Shown piece by piece: positions 2,069-37,157 of a stretch of DNA of 37,157 bases. Position 1 is the stretch's first letter; each line of letters begins with the position of its first letter. The stretch spans positions 1 to 37,157 of IMG/VR virus record IMGVR_UViG_3300025889_000364. The stretch is one strand, 5' to 3'. Below the pieces are notes generated by a model. The model worked only from the letters and a program-made list of their open reading frames with translations. It ran no database searches and was not told the origin of the DNA. A program made the position numbers and the translations under genes. Source of the DNA: a virus.

Positions 2069-3120
2069 TGATTAAAATTAAAGATATCATCAAAGAACAT
2101 AAAATCATAATGACTGAGGCATTTGCAGCAGGTAAACTTCGTGCATTGACAAACAATTGGAGGTCAAACGACTCAGACTTCTGGTCATACGGAGCAAAAC
2201 TTGGTATCGAGTGGGACAAAATCACAGACCAAGAAATCAAAACCAATACCAAACCACTTAAAAAAGGAATTGAACTTGTTTATGTTGATAAAGATGTATC
2301 GGTTCCACAAAAAGGTAACACAGGAAATTGGGGTAAATATGATATCGGTCTTGAAAAATTTACATTGATTAGTGTATTGAGAGACGGAAAACCACTTTGG
2401 TATACAAAAAGTTGGAAACCATTAACCAATGTAATGACTGCAACCGGTAAAACAACTAAAACAAGTCGTTATGGTAGAACAACCAGTAGAGTTCCAGATA
2501 TAGACGCAGGTTCAAGAAGTTATTCAAAAAATAGACAATTTGGATTAAATATGACCGGATATCAATCATTAGCAGGTATGATGTCAATACCAGGAGTTAA
2601 ATTCCACCATATTGATTTATCAGAAGACCAACCTTATATGGGTGCTGGTATCAAACGACAAATGAGACAAGCAGCTCAATTTGGTGCAGCAAAATTCACC
2701 ACTAATGATGAATTTGCAAGAATTAACAAACAATACTTTGATGAATTGTTGAGAGCAAAATTAAACGACCCTAAAAAATTAGCAGCAAAAGTAAAACAAG
2801 CAGCTAATTTTTGTCAACAAATTTTGGACTCAGCACTTGGTGGTGTTAAAGCAACGGGTAAAGTAAAAAGTATTATTGACAAATATCAATCCAATAGAAC
2901 AGTTGCAACACAAGAATCAGACGCTTATCAGTTAGCATCAGAAGTAGGTGATGAATTAAGTAGATTGTATAGATACTATGGATATTATTTAGAGGCAATC
3001 CAAAAAGAAAAAGAAGATAAAATTAATTACGGAACCACAGACTTTGCAAGAGATGATGTTGAAAGACACGCAAAAGATGTTCAACAATATTACAATTATA
3101 TTATGTCAGGAAAATTTTAA
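2068..3120 (+). CDS. Putative internal head protein with capsid-targeting-like leader, 350 aa
   Basis: It starts with MIKIKDIIKE, followed by His. This ten-residue peptide ends in I-K-E and matches in length and pattern the leader of T4 internal proteins (IPIII begins MKTYQEFIAE), which targets the prohead core and is removed by gp21. A second possible site, M-T-E before A-F-A, lies at residues 15-17. The body is unrecognised: a beta-rich first third, a Thr/Arg/Ser-rich stretch near residues 125-150, and an Ala/Lys-rich helical second half. It has one-base overlaps with both neighbours, so expression is probably translationally coupled. It could be an effector ejected with the DNA, but no catalytic motif is visible. 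Confidence 0.6.
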   Translation: MIKIKDIIKEHKIIMTEAFAAGKLRALTNNWRSNDSDFWSYGAKLGIEWDKITDQEIKTNTKPLKKGIELVYVDKDVSVPQKGNTGNWGKYDIGLEKFTLISVLRDGKPLWYTKSWKPLTNVMTATGKTTKTSRYGRTTSRVPDIDAGSRSYSKNRQFGLNMTGYQSLAGMMSIPGVKFHHIDLSEDQPYMGAGIKRQMRQAAQFGAAKFTTNDEFARINKQYFDELLRAKLNDPKKLAAKVKQAANFCQQILDSALGGVKATGKVKSIIDKYQSNRTVATQESDAYQLASEVGDELSRLYRYYGYYLEAIQKEKEDKINYGTTDFARDDVERHAKDVQQYYNYIMSGKF

Positions 3121-3374
3121 TGATAAAATTAAAAAACATATTATCTGAACAAGACAACACCATTGATAAAAAAGAATGGAAAAAAGTCAGCACAACCATT
3201 TATGACGGAATGGATACTTTGTTTTTTAAAGGTGTTAAGTATTTAAGAGATTACGATAGGTCAAACTTACCACCAAAAGAAAAAAGAATGTTAACAGATT
3301 TTTTCAATGATTTCTCAGCACTTCAAAGAAGATTTGGAAAAATAGAACGAGAAATAGAGAGGTATGCAAAATGA
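3120..3374 (+). CDS. Small putative internal head protein, 84 aa
   Basis: The leader MIKLKNILSE, then Gln, fits a ten-residue capsid-targeting peptide ending in L-S-E. The rest is charged and helical (K-K-E-W-K-K near the start, E-R-E-I-E-R near the end) with no known domain. After cleavage about 74 residues would remain, close to the size of small T4 internal proteins. The start overlaps the previous stop (TAATG) and the stop overlaps the next start (ATGA). Function unknown. Confidence 0.6.
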   Translation: MIKLKNILSEQDNTIDKKEWKKVSTTIYDGMDTLFFKGVKYLRDYDRSNLPPKEKRMLTDFFNDFSALQRRFGKIEREIERYAK

Positions 3375-9084: not shown

Positions 9085-11448
9085 ATGGCCGTAACTATTA
9101 GACCGGACTCACCAAATCAAGTAACGACTACACAAGATAGAAAAACTATCGAAATCAATAAGTCGGACAATACTTTAACTGTAGAAAATCAAACAACATC
9201 AATTGTTAATGTTGTGGCACGAGGCCCACAAGGAACTGCTGGTGTGTTAACCACAACAAGTGGTTCGTTTAGTGGTTCATTTATTGGTGACGGAAGTGGA
9301 TTAACCGGTGTAACTGCATCTGCACAAGACGACAATGCATTATATACGGCATCCATAAGTGATGACACCATAACATTTACCAAAGGTGGTGGTGATACAT
9401 TTAACATTACGATTGATAATGTTGTTTCATCTTCATACTCGGTAACATCATCTTATGCAATTTCATCTTCATACTCGATAACTTCATCTTTTTCAACAAC
9501 TTCATCATATGTAGATTGGACAAATATAGATTCAATTCCAAGTGGAATTATCAGTAGTAGTGAACAAATTTCAAACGACATTAGTGGGTCTTGGCAAGGA
9601 TATTTAAGTGGAAGTGGAATTCTTAGTTCATCTGACCAAATAGATTTAAGTAATTATGCAATCATTAGTGGTGGTAATGATTTTATCGGTGGCCAAACTA
9701 TAACTGGTTCATTCTTAGTAACTGGTTCAACAACTCAAATTGGTAACAATACTTTAACTGGTAATACTGAATTAGATGGTTATATCAATATTGTTGGTGA
9801 TTCAACTTTAACTGGTTCATTCTTAGTAAGTGGTTCAACAACTCAGTTTGGTGATAATATTTTAGTTGGTTCAACAACTTTAACGGGTAGTATTTTTATA
9901 GCTGGTGATATTATTCCACAAGTATCCGCTTCTTATAATTTGGGTTCCGCTGATAATCCTTGGAAAGAAATTTATCTACAATCGGGCTCAATCAATGTTC
10001 AAAGTGATATACCTGGTGAACCATACGCAACCATTACAAACGAAACCGGTGATATATCAATTCGTTCTGCTGGATTTAAAGTTAAAAGTGGTTCTGATTC
10101 CGACACAAAAACACCATTTGAAGTAAGACCTTCAGGTAGAGTTATTATAAAAACCGATTATGAAAATCCAGATAATCGTGCATTATTGGAAGTAGTTGGT
10201 AATGTATCGGGTTCACAACAAGCAGCAGTAAATACTGGAACAATTATTCAGACAACTTCTTATAATGGTAGAACCAATAGAACAATTTTTGATTCTTATG
10301 GTAGTGGTTCGTATTCACAATTAAATTTACGAAGGGCAAATGGTACGGTAGAATCACCTTCAACAACAACTGCAGGTTTAATCGGTAGAATTGGTGTTTC
10401 TGGTTGGGTTGACGGAATTGATTATGGTATTCCTGGTGTAACTGGACTACCTGCTCGTATAGATTTTAGAGCACCAGTTGATTATGCAAGTGGAAGTAGA
10501 CCAACAGAAATATGGTTCTATACTACACCGGAAAATCAATTAGACTCACAAGGAGAGTATGCAGTAAAAATCTTTGGTAATAATCATATGGCAGTATCAG
10601 GAACATTTACCGCATCTTTACAAGAAGATTATATTTGGGTCGGACAATCAAACGGATACAGTAGAGAAGTTTCAAAAACAGATTTCTTCGATACCACAGG
10701 ACTTATCAGTAGTTCAGTTCAAATAGCATCAGACATAAGTGGTTCTTTCAATCAAGCAAGTGCAAGTTTTTCAACAAGAATCACAACAGCAGAAACAGAA
10801 TTAAACAACACATTGGTATCAAGTTCTACACAAATAGACATTACACAAACCCAAAACTACGGAAATGTAATGGTAACAGGTTCGATATCAGGTTCAACAC
10901 TAACCTTTACCAAAGGAGATTCATCTACTTTTGATATTCCATTATCGTCTTCTTTTCAACCAGGAACAGGTGGTAGTGGTTTAGGTTGGGCAAGATATGA
11001 TGATAATCAATACACAACATCATCATATTTAACAGTATCACAATCCACACAAACTGTTATACCGAATAATTCTTCTTATGAAGATGAGTCATTTATGAAC
11101 TCAAGTGTTAAATTTTACAATTCTGGAAGTCAGAAAATTCAAATGGAAAATGTTGGAGATGTTTATGAAATGGTCGTAACATTTAAAGCTAAAGCACCTA
11201 ATGCAAATCAAACTCATATTGACCTTACATTAACATCAACCGGTGAAACACCATATGACAGAGTATCAAAAAGTTTAGTTTTTGCAAAAGGTAATGATGA
11301 ATGGCAAAATTTCTATCAAACATTCAATTTTTATGCTGATTCTGATTTTGTGTTGAATGGAAATCAATGGAAAATAACAGCAGATGGTGGAGAAGTTCAT
11401 TTAGCTTCTGCTATATACTTTATCCAAAGAACTTTCAACGGAACATAA
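9085..11448 (+). CDS. Large fibre-like virion protein, 787 aa
   Basis: A Ser/Thr/Gly-rich, beta-repeat protein. Features in order: a short N-terminal head; G-P-Q-G-T-A-G (collagen-like turn) near residue 52; a G-S-F-S-G-S-F-I-G-D-G-S-G-L-T-G-V module near 60-77, common in marine phage fibres; a run of S-S-Y/S-S-F units near 114-145; a 36-residue direct repeat near 205-275; a compact domain near 340-520; and a C-terminal domain that looks like a carbohydrate-binding beta sandwich. It most likely forms a trimeric fibre or whisker. Its place between capsid and neck genes could mean a neck or head fibre, but this is not decidable here. Confidence 0.7.
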   Translation: MAVTIRPDSPNQVTTTQDRKTIEINKSDNTLTVENQTTSIVNVVARGPQGTAGVLTTTSGSFSGSFIGDGSGLTGVTASAQDDNALYTASISDDTITFTKGGGDTFNITIDNVVSSSYSVTSSYAISSSYSITSSFSTTSSYVDWTNIDSIPSGIISSSEQISNDISGSWQGYLSGSGILSSSDQIDLSNYAIISGGNDFIGGQTITGSFLVTGSTTQIGNNTLTGNTELDGYINIVGDSTLTGSFLVSGSTTQFGDNILVGSTTLTGSIFIAGDIIPQVSASYNLGSADNPWKEIYLQSGSINVQSDIPGEPYATITNETGDISIRSAGFKVKSGSDSDTKTPFEVRPSGRVIIKTDYENPDNRALLEVVGNVSGSQQAAVNTGTIIQTTSYNGRTNRTIFDSYGSGSYSQLNLRRANGTVESPSTTTAGLIGRIGVSGWVDGIDYGIPGVTGLPARIDFRAPVDYASGSRPTEIWFYTTPENQLDSQGEYAVKIFGNNHMAVSGTFTASLQEDYIWVGQSNGYSREVSKTDFFDTTGLISSSVQIASDISGSFNQASASFSTRITTAETELNNTLVSSSTQIDITQTQNYGNVMVTGSISGSTLTFTKGDSSTFDIPLSSSFQPGTGGSGLGWARYDDNQYTTSSYLTVSQSTQTVIPNNSSYEDESFMNSSVKFYNSGSQKIQMENVGDVYEMVVTFKAKAPNANQTHIDLTLTSTGETPYDRVSKSLVFAKGNDEWQNFYQTFNFYADSDFVLNGNQWKITADGGEVHLASAIYFIQRTFNGT
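9703..9845 (+). repeat. Direct repeat of a 108-base (36-codon) unit within the fibre gene
   Basis: Bases 9703-9737 and 9811-9845 match at 34 of 35 positions, 108 bases apart, and similarity continues more weakly on both sides. It encodes two G-S-F-L-V-(T/S)-G-S-T-T-Q units. This is consistent with beta-helical fibre growth by unit duplication. Confidence 0.8.
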
Positions 11449-34442: not shown

Positions 34443-34633
34443 GCAACGATTTAAAACAATTATCAAAAATCACTACTCGTTATACGAATCGTGAAGGAGT
34501 GGTAAATCCAGTAAACCAAAAATACGATTTCAAAAAACCTACAATCGTTCGTATTTCTAAACAAGAAATGGAATTACTACATCAAGACGGAACATTAGAA
34601 AAAAACGGAATAACGATTATAGCTGATGAATAA
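34439..34633 (+). CDS. Small hypothetical protein, 64 aa
   Basis: An ATGA overlap couples it to the polymerase-like gene, and it overlaps the nuclease gene by eight bases. The product is mixed helix and strand (P-T-I-V-R-I-S-K-Q-E-M-E-L-L) with no recognised family. Sandwiched between a polymerase-like and a nuclease gene, it could be an accessory to either. Confidence 0.6.
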   Translation: MSNDLKQLSKITTRYTNREGVVNPVNQKYDFKKPTIVRISKQEMELLHQDGTLEKNGITIIADE

Positions 34634-35942
34634 TTGGAAAAAAATACTCAATGAGTTAAGTTATAGAGTTTCATCAGGAATTCCAGACCTAACCAACGAA
34701 CAACACTTGTTAAAATTATGGGACATTTTAAAAGAAGAAAAATGGCCTATTGACGCTCGTGTGGAATTATTAAAGAACTTAAATGAATTAGATTTTTCAA
34801 ACAAACAAGACCTTTCTACTTATGCATCAAAACACAAAATCAGACCAACAACCAAAGTTAATGTTGGTGGTAAAGAAACCACTGCCGGTGAGGAATTACC
34901 AGATTTAGAAAAGAAAAAAGATGATAAAGAAAAGATAAATAAAGAAAAACATCAAGAAAAACAAGAATTTTTATTAAATATGGTAGATGGAATTTTAGCT
35001 TCATCAACAGAAGGTAAAGGTGTTGGTAGATTCAATATGAGTAGAGAAGATTTACAAAAATACAAAGACTATCTTGATGGTAAAAAACCAGAAATTCCTA
35101 ATTATGATATAAATGATGAAGAAGTTAATGAAGTTATCGGTATATTAAAATCAACTTTGGGTGAAGATTATAATAAATTTATTCAACGAGTGAAGAAAAA
35201 AGGAGACCCACCCAAATCATATTCAACAGGTGAAAATGGTAATAAAAGATATTTTGAAGCTTTGAAACATTACTTAACAACAGGTGGAATTAGTACAATA
35301 ACAGGTGAATTTGTTCCCTTTTCAGAATCACAATTAGACCACGTTGTATCATTAGACAATGGTGGTGTTGATGGTGCAGAAAATTGGGAGTGGATGGAAT
35401 CAAGATTTAATCAGTTTAAAGGTGCATTATCAGATGACAAAGTGATGAAGAAGATTAAAAAAGAGCTTAGTAAATCACCAGATGAAGAAAAATTAAAAGC
35501 AATGAATCAAGAATTAAAAAAATACACACAAGTTGCAACTATTCAATATTATGATGAAATTTTTAAAGATGGTGGAACCGCTGGTTTAAGTGAAGATACC
35601 TTGAATGGTATGTCAACTGATAATATTGACTATATTATCAAGGCTTGGAATGAATCAAATCCAGAAGGTGGAAAGTTTTTCGTTCCAAGATATGGTTCAA
35701 AAAAAGATGATACTGGTAAAGCTATTGATAGAAAATCAGGTAGAGCATCTGGTGGTAGAAGAGCGGATAAACCCACACTAATACAAAGACTTATCACAAG
35801 TATGAGAAAAAAAGGTTTAGACGTACCTACGACCGCAGAGGAAAGAAAAGTAGACCAAAAATTTGAAGTTATTGCTAAAGAAATAGAAAAAAGAAAAGGT
35901 GATATCACTAACTTAAAACAAAAAATACAATTAAATAAATAA
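34626..35942 (+). CDS. HNH endonuclease with capsid-targeting-like N-terminus, 438 aa
   Basis: Residues 1-10, MNNWKKILNE then Leu, have the length and L-N-E ending of the leaders in the head cluster. Residues 11-60 (L-S-Y-R-V-S-S-G-I-P-D-L-T-N-E-Q-H-L) form a small N-terminal domain that recurs in marine phage proteins. A Lys/Glu linker follows (about 85-115). The nuclease core is T225-G-E-F-V, D238-H239-V-V-S-L, E252-N253, R260-x-N262-x2-K265, an HNH arrangement with the third His replaced by Asn (H-N-N type); no Cys zinc knuckle is seen. A basic C-terminal region probably binds DNA. It is not inside another gene or an intron. Confidence 0.78.
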   Translation: MNNWKKILNELSYRVSSGIPDLTNEQHLLKLWDILKEEKWPIDARVELLKNLNELDFSNKQDLSTYASKHKIRPTTKVNVGGKETTAGEELPDLEKKKDDKEKINKEKHQEKQEFLLNMVDGILASSTEGKGVGRFNMSREDLQKYKDYLDGKKPEIPNYDINDEEVNEVIGILKSTLGEDYNKFIQRVKKKGDPPKSYSTGENGNKRYFEALKHYLTTGGISTITGEFVPFSESQLDHVVSLDNGGVDGAENWEWMESRFNQFKGALSDDKVMKKIKKELSKSPDEEKLKAMNQELKKYTQVATIQYYDEIFKDGGTAGLSEDTLNGMSTDNIDYIIKAWNESNPEGGKFFVPRYGSKKDDTGKAIDRKSGRASGGRRADKPTLIQRLITSMRKKGLDVPTTAEERKVDQKFEVIAKEIEKRKGDITNLKQKIQLNK

Positions 35943-36349
35943 TGAAAACTCAATTACTATGCACCTTTACCACTAAACCAAGATTAAACGAAACCTTGGA
36001 CATTATTATTCTGAACAATGATGTATTGTATGAAAAAGTATATGTGTTTCAAAATGAAAATGATTTAGGACAATTAATTTGCACATACAACATAGAATAC
36101 AAATACGAATACGAAGAAAGCATTATCGATACTATTTCTCTACATAGAAAAAAACAAAGTAATACACTCTACACAATCAACGCACTAAACGAAGTCATCA
36201 GAGAAAAGAATGGTGGTGTATTAGACAAATCTTATATGGTGGATTGGAACGAGTTTTCCAATACATTACTTCTGACAAACGAAATGGGATTACAAAAAAT
36301 CCCTACCCGAATATTTCAAATCGTAGATACGACTTCTTGGAAAAAATAA
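35942..36349 (+). CDS. Conserved-looking hypothetical protein, 135 aa
   Basis: It starts at a TAATG overlap with the nuclease gene. The product alternates strand and helix (Q-L-L-C-T-F-T-T-K, L-D-I-I-I-L, Y-T-I-N-A-L-N-E-V-I-R-E-K-N-G-G-V-L-D), suggesting a compact alpha/beta domain. I recall proteins of this pattern in T4-type marine phage genomes but know no function. It is the last protein gene before the RNA region and has no visible terminator. Confidence 0.7.
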   Translation: MKTQLLCTFTTKPRLNETLDIIILNNDVLYEKVYVFQNENDLGQLICTYNIEYKYEYEESIIDTISLHRKKQSNTLYTINALNEVIREKNGGVLDKSYMVDWNEFSNTLLLTNEMGLQKIPTRIFQIVDTTSWKK

Positions 36350-36359
36350 AAAAAAGTTC

Positions 36360-36388
36360 TTGACTTTTTCATTTTTTATTCATATATT
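36360..36388 (+). promoter_or_regulatory. Forward promoter of structured RNA unit 1
   Basis: TTGACT (36360-36365), 17 bases, TATATT (36383-36388), continuing ATAATATAAG. An A-rich tract (about 36340-36357) lies directly upstream, as an UP element would. Hexamers and spacing are identical to the other four sites of this class. Confidence 0.78.
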
Positions 36389-36395
36389 ATAATAT

Positions 36396-36521
36396 AAGTT
36401 ATTTGATAATTAAACAAGGTTCGTAATGAGACGAACGACTCTGATGTGAGAACGCGAAGATTCGATTTAGATGAAAAGGTTCGTTATTCGGAGTCAGGCG
36501 AGGTGTGGTGTGGGTTCTCAT
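36396..36521 (+). ncRNA. Structured RNA unit 1 (about 125 nt)
   Basis: It starts just after a strong promoter and has no open frame of note. Visible pairings: hairpin GTTCG (36419-36423)/CGAAC (36432-36436); directly after it GACTC (36437-36441) with GAGTC (36491-36495); and TGAGAAC (36447-36453) with GTTCTCA (36514-36520). The last two cross, so they form a pseudoknot or are alternatives. The shared 42-base element is at 36442-36483. No T-run ends it, so it may read into unit 2 and be processed. Identity unknown. Confidence 0.5.
36442..36483 (+). repeat. Shared 42-base RNA element, copy 1
   Basis: It matches 36806-36847 at 40 of 42 positions. One change (T36466 for C) keeps a pair with G in a possible AAG/(C or T)TT hairpin (G-C to G-U), which is consistent with selection on RNA structure. 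Confidence 0.9.
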
Positions 36522-36546
36522 TTAGAAAAAAAAAATAAAAAAGTTC

Positions 36547-36575
36547 TTGACTTTTTGATTTTTCCTTTGTATATT
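36547..36575 (+). promoter_or_regulatory. Forward promoter of structured RNA unit 2
   Basis: TTGACT (36547-36552), 17 bases, TATATT (36570-36575), continuing ATAGTATAAG. The A-tract before it and the first transcribed bases (AAGTTATTT, then A-A-C-A-A-T-T) copy those of unit 1, so promoter and leader were duplicated together. Confidence 0.78.
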
Positions 36576-36584
36576 ATAGTATAA

Positions 36585-36862
36585 GTTATTTAACAATTGG
36601 GTAGTAAATTCATCACGAAAATCTTATCGTGCCCTGCGGGGGCGATGATATCGACGGTAAGACAGGTGGTTAGGCAAACAAACAAACAGAATCACTTTGG
36701 AAACATTGTGTGGTTTGTTCCGATATGCCGGTTGGATTGACATTGAATTAGATACTGGTCTTGGAAACTTGACTTGGAGTTCTTTGCCGACCGGGTGTCA
36801 AGGGGTGATGAGAGAACGCGAAGATTCGACTTAGATGAAAAGGTTCGCATTTACTACCAAAA
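36585..36862 (+). ncRNA. Structured RNA unit 2 (about 270 nt)
   Basis: A perfect ten-pair helix closes it: GGTAGTAAAT (36600-36609) with ATTTACTACC (36849-36858). Stacked on its 5' strand, TCATCAC (36610-36616) pairs with GTGATGA (36805-36811), leaving the shared element as a side domain between the two helices. Further hairpins: GCCC (36631-36634)/GGGC (36640-36643); AACAAAC/GTTTGTT in 36673-36728; and one near 36757-36773. The last two carry TTGGAAAC in the loop. The region is visibly richer in GC than the coding DNA and has no credible ORF. It does not match tRNA, tmRNA, RNase P or group I intron signatures that I can recognise. Confidence 0.62.
36806..36847 (+). repeat. Shared 42-base RNA element, copy 2
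   Basis: Second copy of the element at 36442-36483, with two mismatches. It sits exactly in the gap between the two long-range helices of unit 2. Confidence 0.9.
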
Positions 36863-36876
36863 ACTTCTTAAAAAAA

Positions 36877-36914
36877 TAAAAAAAATCTCAAAAAAAATAC
36901 ATTTTGAGATTTTT
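36877..36914. terminator. Hairpin terminator behind RNA unit 2
   Basis: AAAAATCTCAAAA pairs with TTTTGAGATTTTT across a short A-rich loop, ending in a T-run. The stem is AT-rich but long, and symmetrical, so it may work in both directions. Confidence 0.6.
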
Positions 36915-36932
36915 GTATAATATATATAAATA
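36904..36932 (+). promoter_or_regulatory. Weak or composite promoter of RNA unit 3
   Basis: TTTTTGTATAATAT (extended -10 type) and an exact TATAAATA (36925-36932) lie in a TA-rich tract. A hairpin TATACTT/AAGTATA (36931-36937/36949-36955) follows. The TTGACT hexamer of the other units is replaced by TTGAGA and the spacing does not fit as well. Confidence 0.35.
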
Positions 36933-36956
36933 TACTTAGAAGTTTTTTAAGTATAG

Positions 36957-37157
36957 TTCTTTGACAATTTGGAATTGAAAAGTAGAACCACCGACGGGTG
37001 TTTCTATGGGATTGGCTGAAAAATGGGTAATTCATTAGAAGCCCATAAAGCAATCTGGACAAAGTTGTGGTGACTGATAATTGGTAAAATTCTAATTATC
37101 TACCGACAGGTGTTGTCTAATGTATTTTCGTAAAACCATAAGATGATTCTTATGACT
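36957..37157 (+). ncRNA. Structured RNA unit 3, cut by the window end
   Basis: The leader TAGTTCTTTGACAATT resembles those of units 1 and 2. A hairpin TAGAA-C-CACC, loop GACG, GGTG-T-TTCTA spans about 36983-37005. TATGGG/CCCATA form a larger loop (about 37005-37047). ACC-GACA-GGT follows near 37102-37111 and CATAAG/CTTATG closes the visible part (37137-37154). The CC-GACn-GG tetraloop occurs twice here and a similar one at 36787-36798 in unit 2. No open frame. Confidence 0.42.

Follow-up and report, generated by a model that had tools for sequence, protein, structure and literature searches.

Organisation of the RNA island

The window, which is the whole 37157-base virus record, ends in an island of real, conserved and structured RNA genes. 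Three RNA units and no credible gene were found at positions 36350-37157, and the contig end falls inside the third unit. On the left, the island is bordered by the gene gpX, while its right border was placed from relatives, in which the RNA island is followed by two genes that we take, from our own reading of the sequences, to be gene 32 and uvsX. The features of the region are as follows:

35942..36349, + strand: gpX, the upstream gene (135 aa), left border of the RNA island
36360..36388, + strand: unit 1 promoter, TTGACT-N17-TATATT
36398..36408, + strand: unit 1 boxA-like leader GTTATTTGATA, compared with 16S leaders
36418..36525, + strand: unit 1 RNA, carrying a 45-nt insert here
36442..36486, + strand: insert of 45 nt within the loop of the unit 1 hairpin, ACTC^TTCGGAGT, duplicating the variable module of unit 2
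36547..36575, + strand: unit 2 promoter, TTGACT-N17-TATATT
36585..36595, + strand: unit 2 boxA-like leader GTTATTTAACA
36600..36858, + strand: unit 2 RNA, about 260 nt, no Rfam match, present in 32 contigs
36811..36849, + strand: variable module of unit 2, flanked on both sides by a closing helix
36881..36914, + strand: A+T-rich terminator-like hairpin after unit 2, AAAAATCTC...GAGATTTTT
36916..36921, + strand: TATAAT, tentative -10 of unit 3, read from the sequence, with no -35 recognised
36931..36955, + strand: hairpin 5' of the unit 3 boxA-like element, in a boxB-like position
36956..36966, + strand: unit 3 boxA-like leader GTTCTTTGACA
36977..37157, + strand: unit 3, copy 1 of a tandem manA RNA (RF01745), ended by the contig end
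37008..37012, + strand: GGGAU, 5' pseudoknot strand, whose partner, AUCCC at the 3' terminus of copy 2, lies past the contig end
Beyond the contig end: gene 32, right border of the RNA island

The first-pass annotation had described this region as three units lacking a credible ORF, and most of its description was borne out. The + strand holds no ORF of at least 60 aa, and the sole frame of that size is a 64-aa antisense frame. The proposed promoters of units 1 and 2 were recovered, with TTGACT at 36360 and 36547, TATATT ending at 36388 and 36575, and a 17-nt spacing in both. The leaders of these two units, reported as near-identical, share 86% identity over 71 nt, and the units have in common a 42-nt element that is 95% identical. 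For unit 3, the similar leader is represented by a boxA-like element, yet the TTGACT promoter is absent. The reported shift in base composition was also observed: the GC content is 0.327 for the whole window, 0.463 for unit 1 and 0.448 for unit 2, and this last value is unmatched by any 259-nt window across positions 1-36000.

A search of the island for tRNA and tmRNA genes found none, and its scan with 4227 Rfam covariance models gave zero matches at the gathering score. Phage T4 encodes two stable noncoding RNAs, C and D, also called species 1 and 2. The island RNAs would resemble these as stable noncoding RNAs of T4-like phages, their stability being presumed, and differ from them in that the island holds no tRNA cluster. 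At the protein level, a Pfam search of gpX, the small gene orf80 of the relatives and neighbouring genes returned nothing above cut-off. The gene two upstream of the island (34626-35942), also with nothing above the Pfam cut-off, contains the stretch LDHVVSLDNGG...NWEWMESRFNQFKG, which by eye resembles an HNH endonuclease motif.

The phage has a major head protein of the T4-like family. The best matches of this protein were an uncultured phage (56.5%), Microcystis phage Mel-JY01 (55.8%) and Flavobacterium phages of the immuto group (51.8%). Among the relatives of gene 32, one lies in a Saprospiraceae MAG contig and one in a Euryarchaeota MAG. The window represents a marine T4-like phage and, judging from these other genes, its host is likely a member of the Bacteroidota.

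Unit 2 and its variable module

Unit 2 is a structured RNA family that is absent from Rfam 15. A combined pattern and profile search identified it in 32 contigs, window included. Its core is enclosed by an outer helix (GGTAGTAAA/TTTACTACC) and an inner helix (CATCAC/GTGATG). In an alignment of 19 sequences, 99.3% of the cells were paired, compared with at most 54.3% in slid controls, although the structure was derived from the same sequences on which it was tested and is thereby favoured over its slid versions. In the same alignment, 33 cells were changed on both sides, against 12.7 in shuffles, and the compensatory pairs sit in helices 4, 7, 8, 9 and 10. The long-range complementarity that had been noticed across the units was supported for unit 2, whose pairing beats that of shuffles (z -2.14, 5/200), whereas unit 1 alone was not clearly better than its shuffles (z -1.02). 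In some relatives, the stem of the terminator-like hairpin after unit 2 consists of TCCC/GGGA.

The site enclosed by GGTAGT/ACTACC and CATCAC/GTGATG contains a class a module in 8 contigs and a class b module in 14, while the module is absent in 9. The unit 2 core stays highly similar while the module is swapped, lost or copied between units. Such a copy (45 nt) lies inside the unit 1 loop in the window and in contig L004. In 8 other contigs, unit 1 is a short RNA with a small hairpin and a loop such as GCGAAAGCC or ACTCTTCGGAGTC, and many relatives display a promoter plus a stub at this position and nothing more.

Permissive Rfam scans of units 1 and 2 returned only chance-level antisense matches (E of at least 6), located over the leaders and the start of unit 1. 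Outside its close clade, unit 2 was found neither by profile HMM nor by the calibrated covariance model R1, in a search that included Flavobacterium phage immuto and Microcystis phage Mel-JY01 as complete genomes. Comparison of the RNA bodies with 50,697 phage records by blastn gave no convincing match, and antisense complementarity between the units and the 16S region of the host was no higher than in shuffles.

In many relatives, a small gene (orf80; L001 3307-3555 and homologues) is placed between unit 2 and the tandem manA RNA. It encodes about 83 aa, has a ribosome-binding site, matched no family above cut-off, and is missing from the window. Since unit 2 lies directly upstream of orf80 in several relatives, a cis role may be possible there.

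Unit 3 as a tandem variant of manA RNA

Unit 3 is a tandem variant of manA (RF01745), as opposed to a single domain with an internal pseudoknot. A permissive scan placed manA on 36983-37157 with 21.5 bits (E 0.0046), as a fragment stopped by the contig end. Contig L004 is 99.5% identical to the window here, and in it the RNA continues at 2709-3094, with a terminator near 3183; the second manA copy of L004 scored 59.2 bits against a gathering score of 55.2. This score was passed in 6 of the 13 searched records, copy 1 alone was under the cut-off wherever it was reported, and two adjacent manA matches per record were found in four other records. The earlier statement that no family could be recognised in the island is therefore only partly retained: Rfam is silent on units 1 and 2 and gives nothing at the gathering score within the window, whereas unit 3 belongs to RF01745 and exceeds that score in its L004 continuation.

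A profile built from six tandem RNAs yielded near-full matches at many loci, and the 68 extracted stretches correspond to 55 unique sequences. In an alignment of 26 tandem RNAs, 25 of the 40 named pairs were changed on both sides and 99.0% of the cells were paired, compared with at most 48.6% in slid controls; the pairs were named after viewing the same sequences, and it is the shuffle and slide controls that carry weight, not the bare percentage. The pseudoknot spans the two copies, with GGGAU in copy 1 pairing with the AUCCC that ends copy 2 (100% paired in 26 sequences). Two compensatory events within the tandem set, GGAAU/AUUCC in L093 and L101 and GGGGU/ACCCC in L148 and L153, provide good but not overwhelming evidence for this cross-copy pairing. 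The single manA of L015 has the pseudoknot GGGAG/CUCCC. Conserved pairing was thus seen in both RNAs analysed for covariation, and with unit 2 in 32 contigs and 55 unique near-full tandem manA sequences, the array of promoter-driven structured RNAs proposed by the first-pass annotation is upheld.

Unit 3 fits the manA model and shows recognisable forms of the GACG-loop hairpin, of the conserved CUGAA segment and of the terminal pseudoknot. It differs in that the RNA is doubled, a single pseudoknot runs across both copies, and the RNA has a boxA leader and its own terminator. The cyanophage manA RNAs examined are single copies, in contrast to the tandem form of the phage island. In the literature, no description of a tandem form was found, nor any report of a manA ligand or a tested target, and no manA was detected in immuto or Mel-JY01. 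A consensus-like promoter is located a few bases before manA in all 6 annotated cyanophage records that were viewed and in L015. In four cyanophage loci (L181, L183, L184 and L186), the -35 TTGACA lies within the terminator-like hairpin of the preceding gene (e.g., GAGGGTGCTTGACACCCTCTTTTTTT), so that the terminator and the manA promoter appear fused. Another grouping of RNA elements is the wcaG-manA-abiF cluster of S-CREM1, at 9745-9842, 10215-10429 and 10531-10567 (PMC9964418). Like the island, it brings several RNA elements close together in a T4-like phage; unlike the island, it has other partner RNAs, and neither the wcaG nor the abiF family of Rfam was hit by unit 1 or unit 2.

The tandem manA RNA sits upstream of gene 32 but closes with its own terminator, which has a conserved loop and lies ahead of that gene. 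Of the 80 loci chosen by gene 32, the tandem-manA profile did not match 44, a number that includes contigs starting too near gene 32. Ten of the 44 were read by eye and leave no space for the RNAs, as a coding gene stops only about 110 nt short of gene 32. Where relatives lack the RNAs, gpX or a different gene extends directly to gene 32. Locus L099 has no tandem manA but retains, some 120-190 bases ahead of gene 32, a terminator hairpin whose loop is similar (TTTTAGTATCCACC...CTTAAAA), and this hairpin may therefore have a role of its own near gene 32.

boxA-like leaders and the synthesis of the island RNAs

All three leaders contain a boxA-like element (GTTnTTTRAnA), and this rRNA-type leader is the most informative new feature of the island. 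The pattern TT.TTT[GA]A.AATT is confined to the three units on the + strand of the window; the other strand has two further matches, inside genes. Among the loci collected at that stage, 69 distinct promoter-like sites were identified. A boxA was present at 33 of them, and none of these was followed by an ORF, while all 16 sites that precede an ORF with a ribosome-binding site lack a boxA. The association (Fisher p 4e-6) overstates independence owing to related contigs, as the relatives of units 1 and 2 that contribute to the 33 boxA promoters are closely related. Some of the 20 sites that have no boxA and no ORF are chance matches within genes.

No 16S gene was found in the two MAGs holding gene 32 relatives, and the 16S leaders were consequently drawn from further genomes belonging to the same order and class as the Saprospiraceae MAG. 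Of 21 Bacteroidota genomes, 18 have GTTCTTTGA or GTTCTTTAA at 75-177 nt ahead of the 16S gene (expected 0.03 each). The elements of units 3, 2 and 1 (GTTCTTTGACA, GTTATTTAACA and GTTATTTGATA) match GTTCTTTGAA, the leader form of the Bacteroidota, the putative host lineage. Against the published gamma-proteobacterial boxA consensus GYTCTTTAANA (PMC5725501), units 3 and 2 are one position off and unit 1 is two. In E. coli rRNA, boxA recruits NusB/S10, and Rho-dependent termination is prevented (PMC5725501, PMC4807359, PMC6614801).

The boxA-like element near the 5' end of the units is shared with the boxB/boxA signals of rRNA and with phage nut sites, and the hairpin just upstream of boxA in unit 3 repeats the boxB-boxA order of rRNA. 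Among 33 distinct unit 3 leaders, 31 have a hairpin stem of at least 6 pairs that ends within 7 nt of boxA, compared with a mean of 12.4 and a maximum of 19 after shuffling. The island differs from rRNA leaders and nut sites in that the element precedes small noncoding phage RNAs and in that no boxC was identified. The first-pass annotation had considered an early action on host transcription, translation or RNA decay; the one concrete link that emerged is the host rRNA-type boxA leader, which suggests that the RNAs are themselves made with the help of the host's Nus antitermination machinery.

Leaving function aside, we consider it fairly probable that the island encodes autonomous, stable phage RNAs that are transcribed behind a host rRNA-type antitermination signal. 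This reading builds on established observations: the conservation and covarying structure of the RNAs, the boxA match, the absence of boxA at ORF promoters, and the terminator hairpins after unit 2 and the tandem manA RNA. The island between gpX and gene 32, the gene for the single-strand DNA binding protein of this T4-like phage, would then consist of autonomous transcription units, with strong sigma-70-type promoters for units 1 and 2 and a less clear one for unit 3. Every transcript would start with a boxA-like antitermination element of the type seen in host 16S rRNA leaders, which would recruit NusB/S10 and other Nus factors, and the polymerase could cross the untranslated structured RNA with no Rho termination. 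The RNA would fold and accumulate as a stable trans-acting RNA. More speculatively, the RNAs might act as structured scaffolds or decoys during infection, and the exchangeable module that unit 2 carries, and of which unit 1 has a copy, might be a fast-evolving part related to target or escape.

An alternative that appears unlikely is that the tandem manA RNA is a cis-acting riboswitch or leader controlling gene 32, with units 1 and 2 as accessory leaders of the same operon or of orf80. The RNA lies directly upstream of gene 32 in most relatives, as does the single manA of cyanophage P-HM2, and it is followed by a terminator, as in many riboswitches. Moreover, manA was found in potential 5' UTRs and classed as cis-regulatory by Weinberg et al. 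2010 (PMC2864571), and its type in Rfam is 'Cis-reg'. However, L027, L034 and L046 have the tandem RNA with no gene 32 match nearby, L099 retains the terminator hairpin and not the RNA upstream of gene 32, and the manA neighbours vary across six annotated cyanophage records (regA, ferredoxin, the major head gene twice, NAD synthetase, and gene 32 downstream in P-HM2). A boxA at the start would also be unusual for a leader closed by a terminator.

Two further explanations assign the RNAs a decoy role, and we give little credence to either. Abundant phage boxA RNA could titrate host NusB/S10 and weaken rRNA synthesis, the RNA bodies serving mainly as stabilisers. The three boxA copies of the island, described as promoter-driven, and their match to host 16S leaders point in this direction, but conservation and covariation of the bodies go far beyond what a stabiliser requires, and the needed stoichiometry has no support. 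It is comparably improbable that units 1 and 2 are decoys or mimics directed at host defence (e.g., an RNA anti-CRISPR or a toxin-antitoxin RNA), with the module as the mimic. The replacement, deletion and copying of the module around a highly similar core would fit such a role; against it, DNA of units 1 and 2 had no match in 295 Bacteroidia genomes, in a search run without a positive control, and Rfam is silent on both units, with decoy families covered by Rfam models only.

If the island RNAs are indeed autonomous, a wider statement may be ventured, which we regard as possible but tentative: T4-like phages of Bacteroidota would run autonomous ncRNA genes under rRNA-type boxA signals, the module of the new family would be a rapidly evolving recognition element, and manA would generally be a stand-alone RNA and not a riboswitch. 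For manA, we infer this autonomy against the cis-regulatory class given in Rfam and in PMC2864571. manA has been a candidate riboswitch since 2010, and the stand-alone hypothesis becomes testable with a tandem form that has a start signal and a terminator of its own. The boxA leaders suggest a route by which a phage could make untranslated RNAs despite Rho, using a borrowed host rRNA signal, and unit 2 offers a new family with a visible hot spot of module exchange as an experimental target.

Elsewhere in the window, just downstream of the major head gene on the - strand (8590 to about 8497), a TTGACT-type promoter is followed by about 60 nt without an ORF and by a GC-rich terminator-like hairpin (CCCCACCGAAGTGGGG) with a subsequent T run, which may represent a further small RNA.
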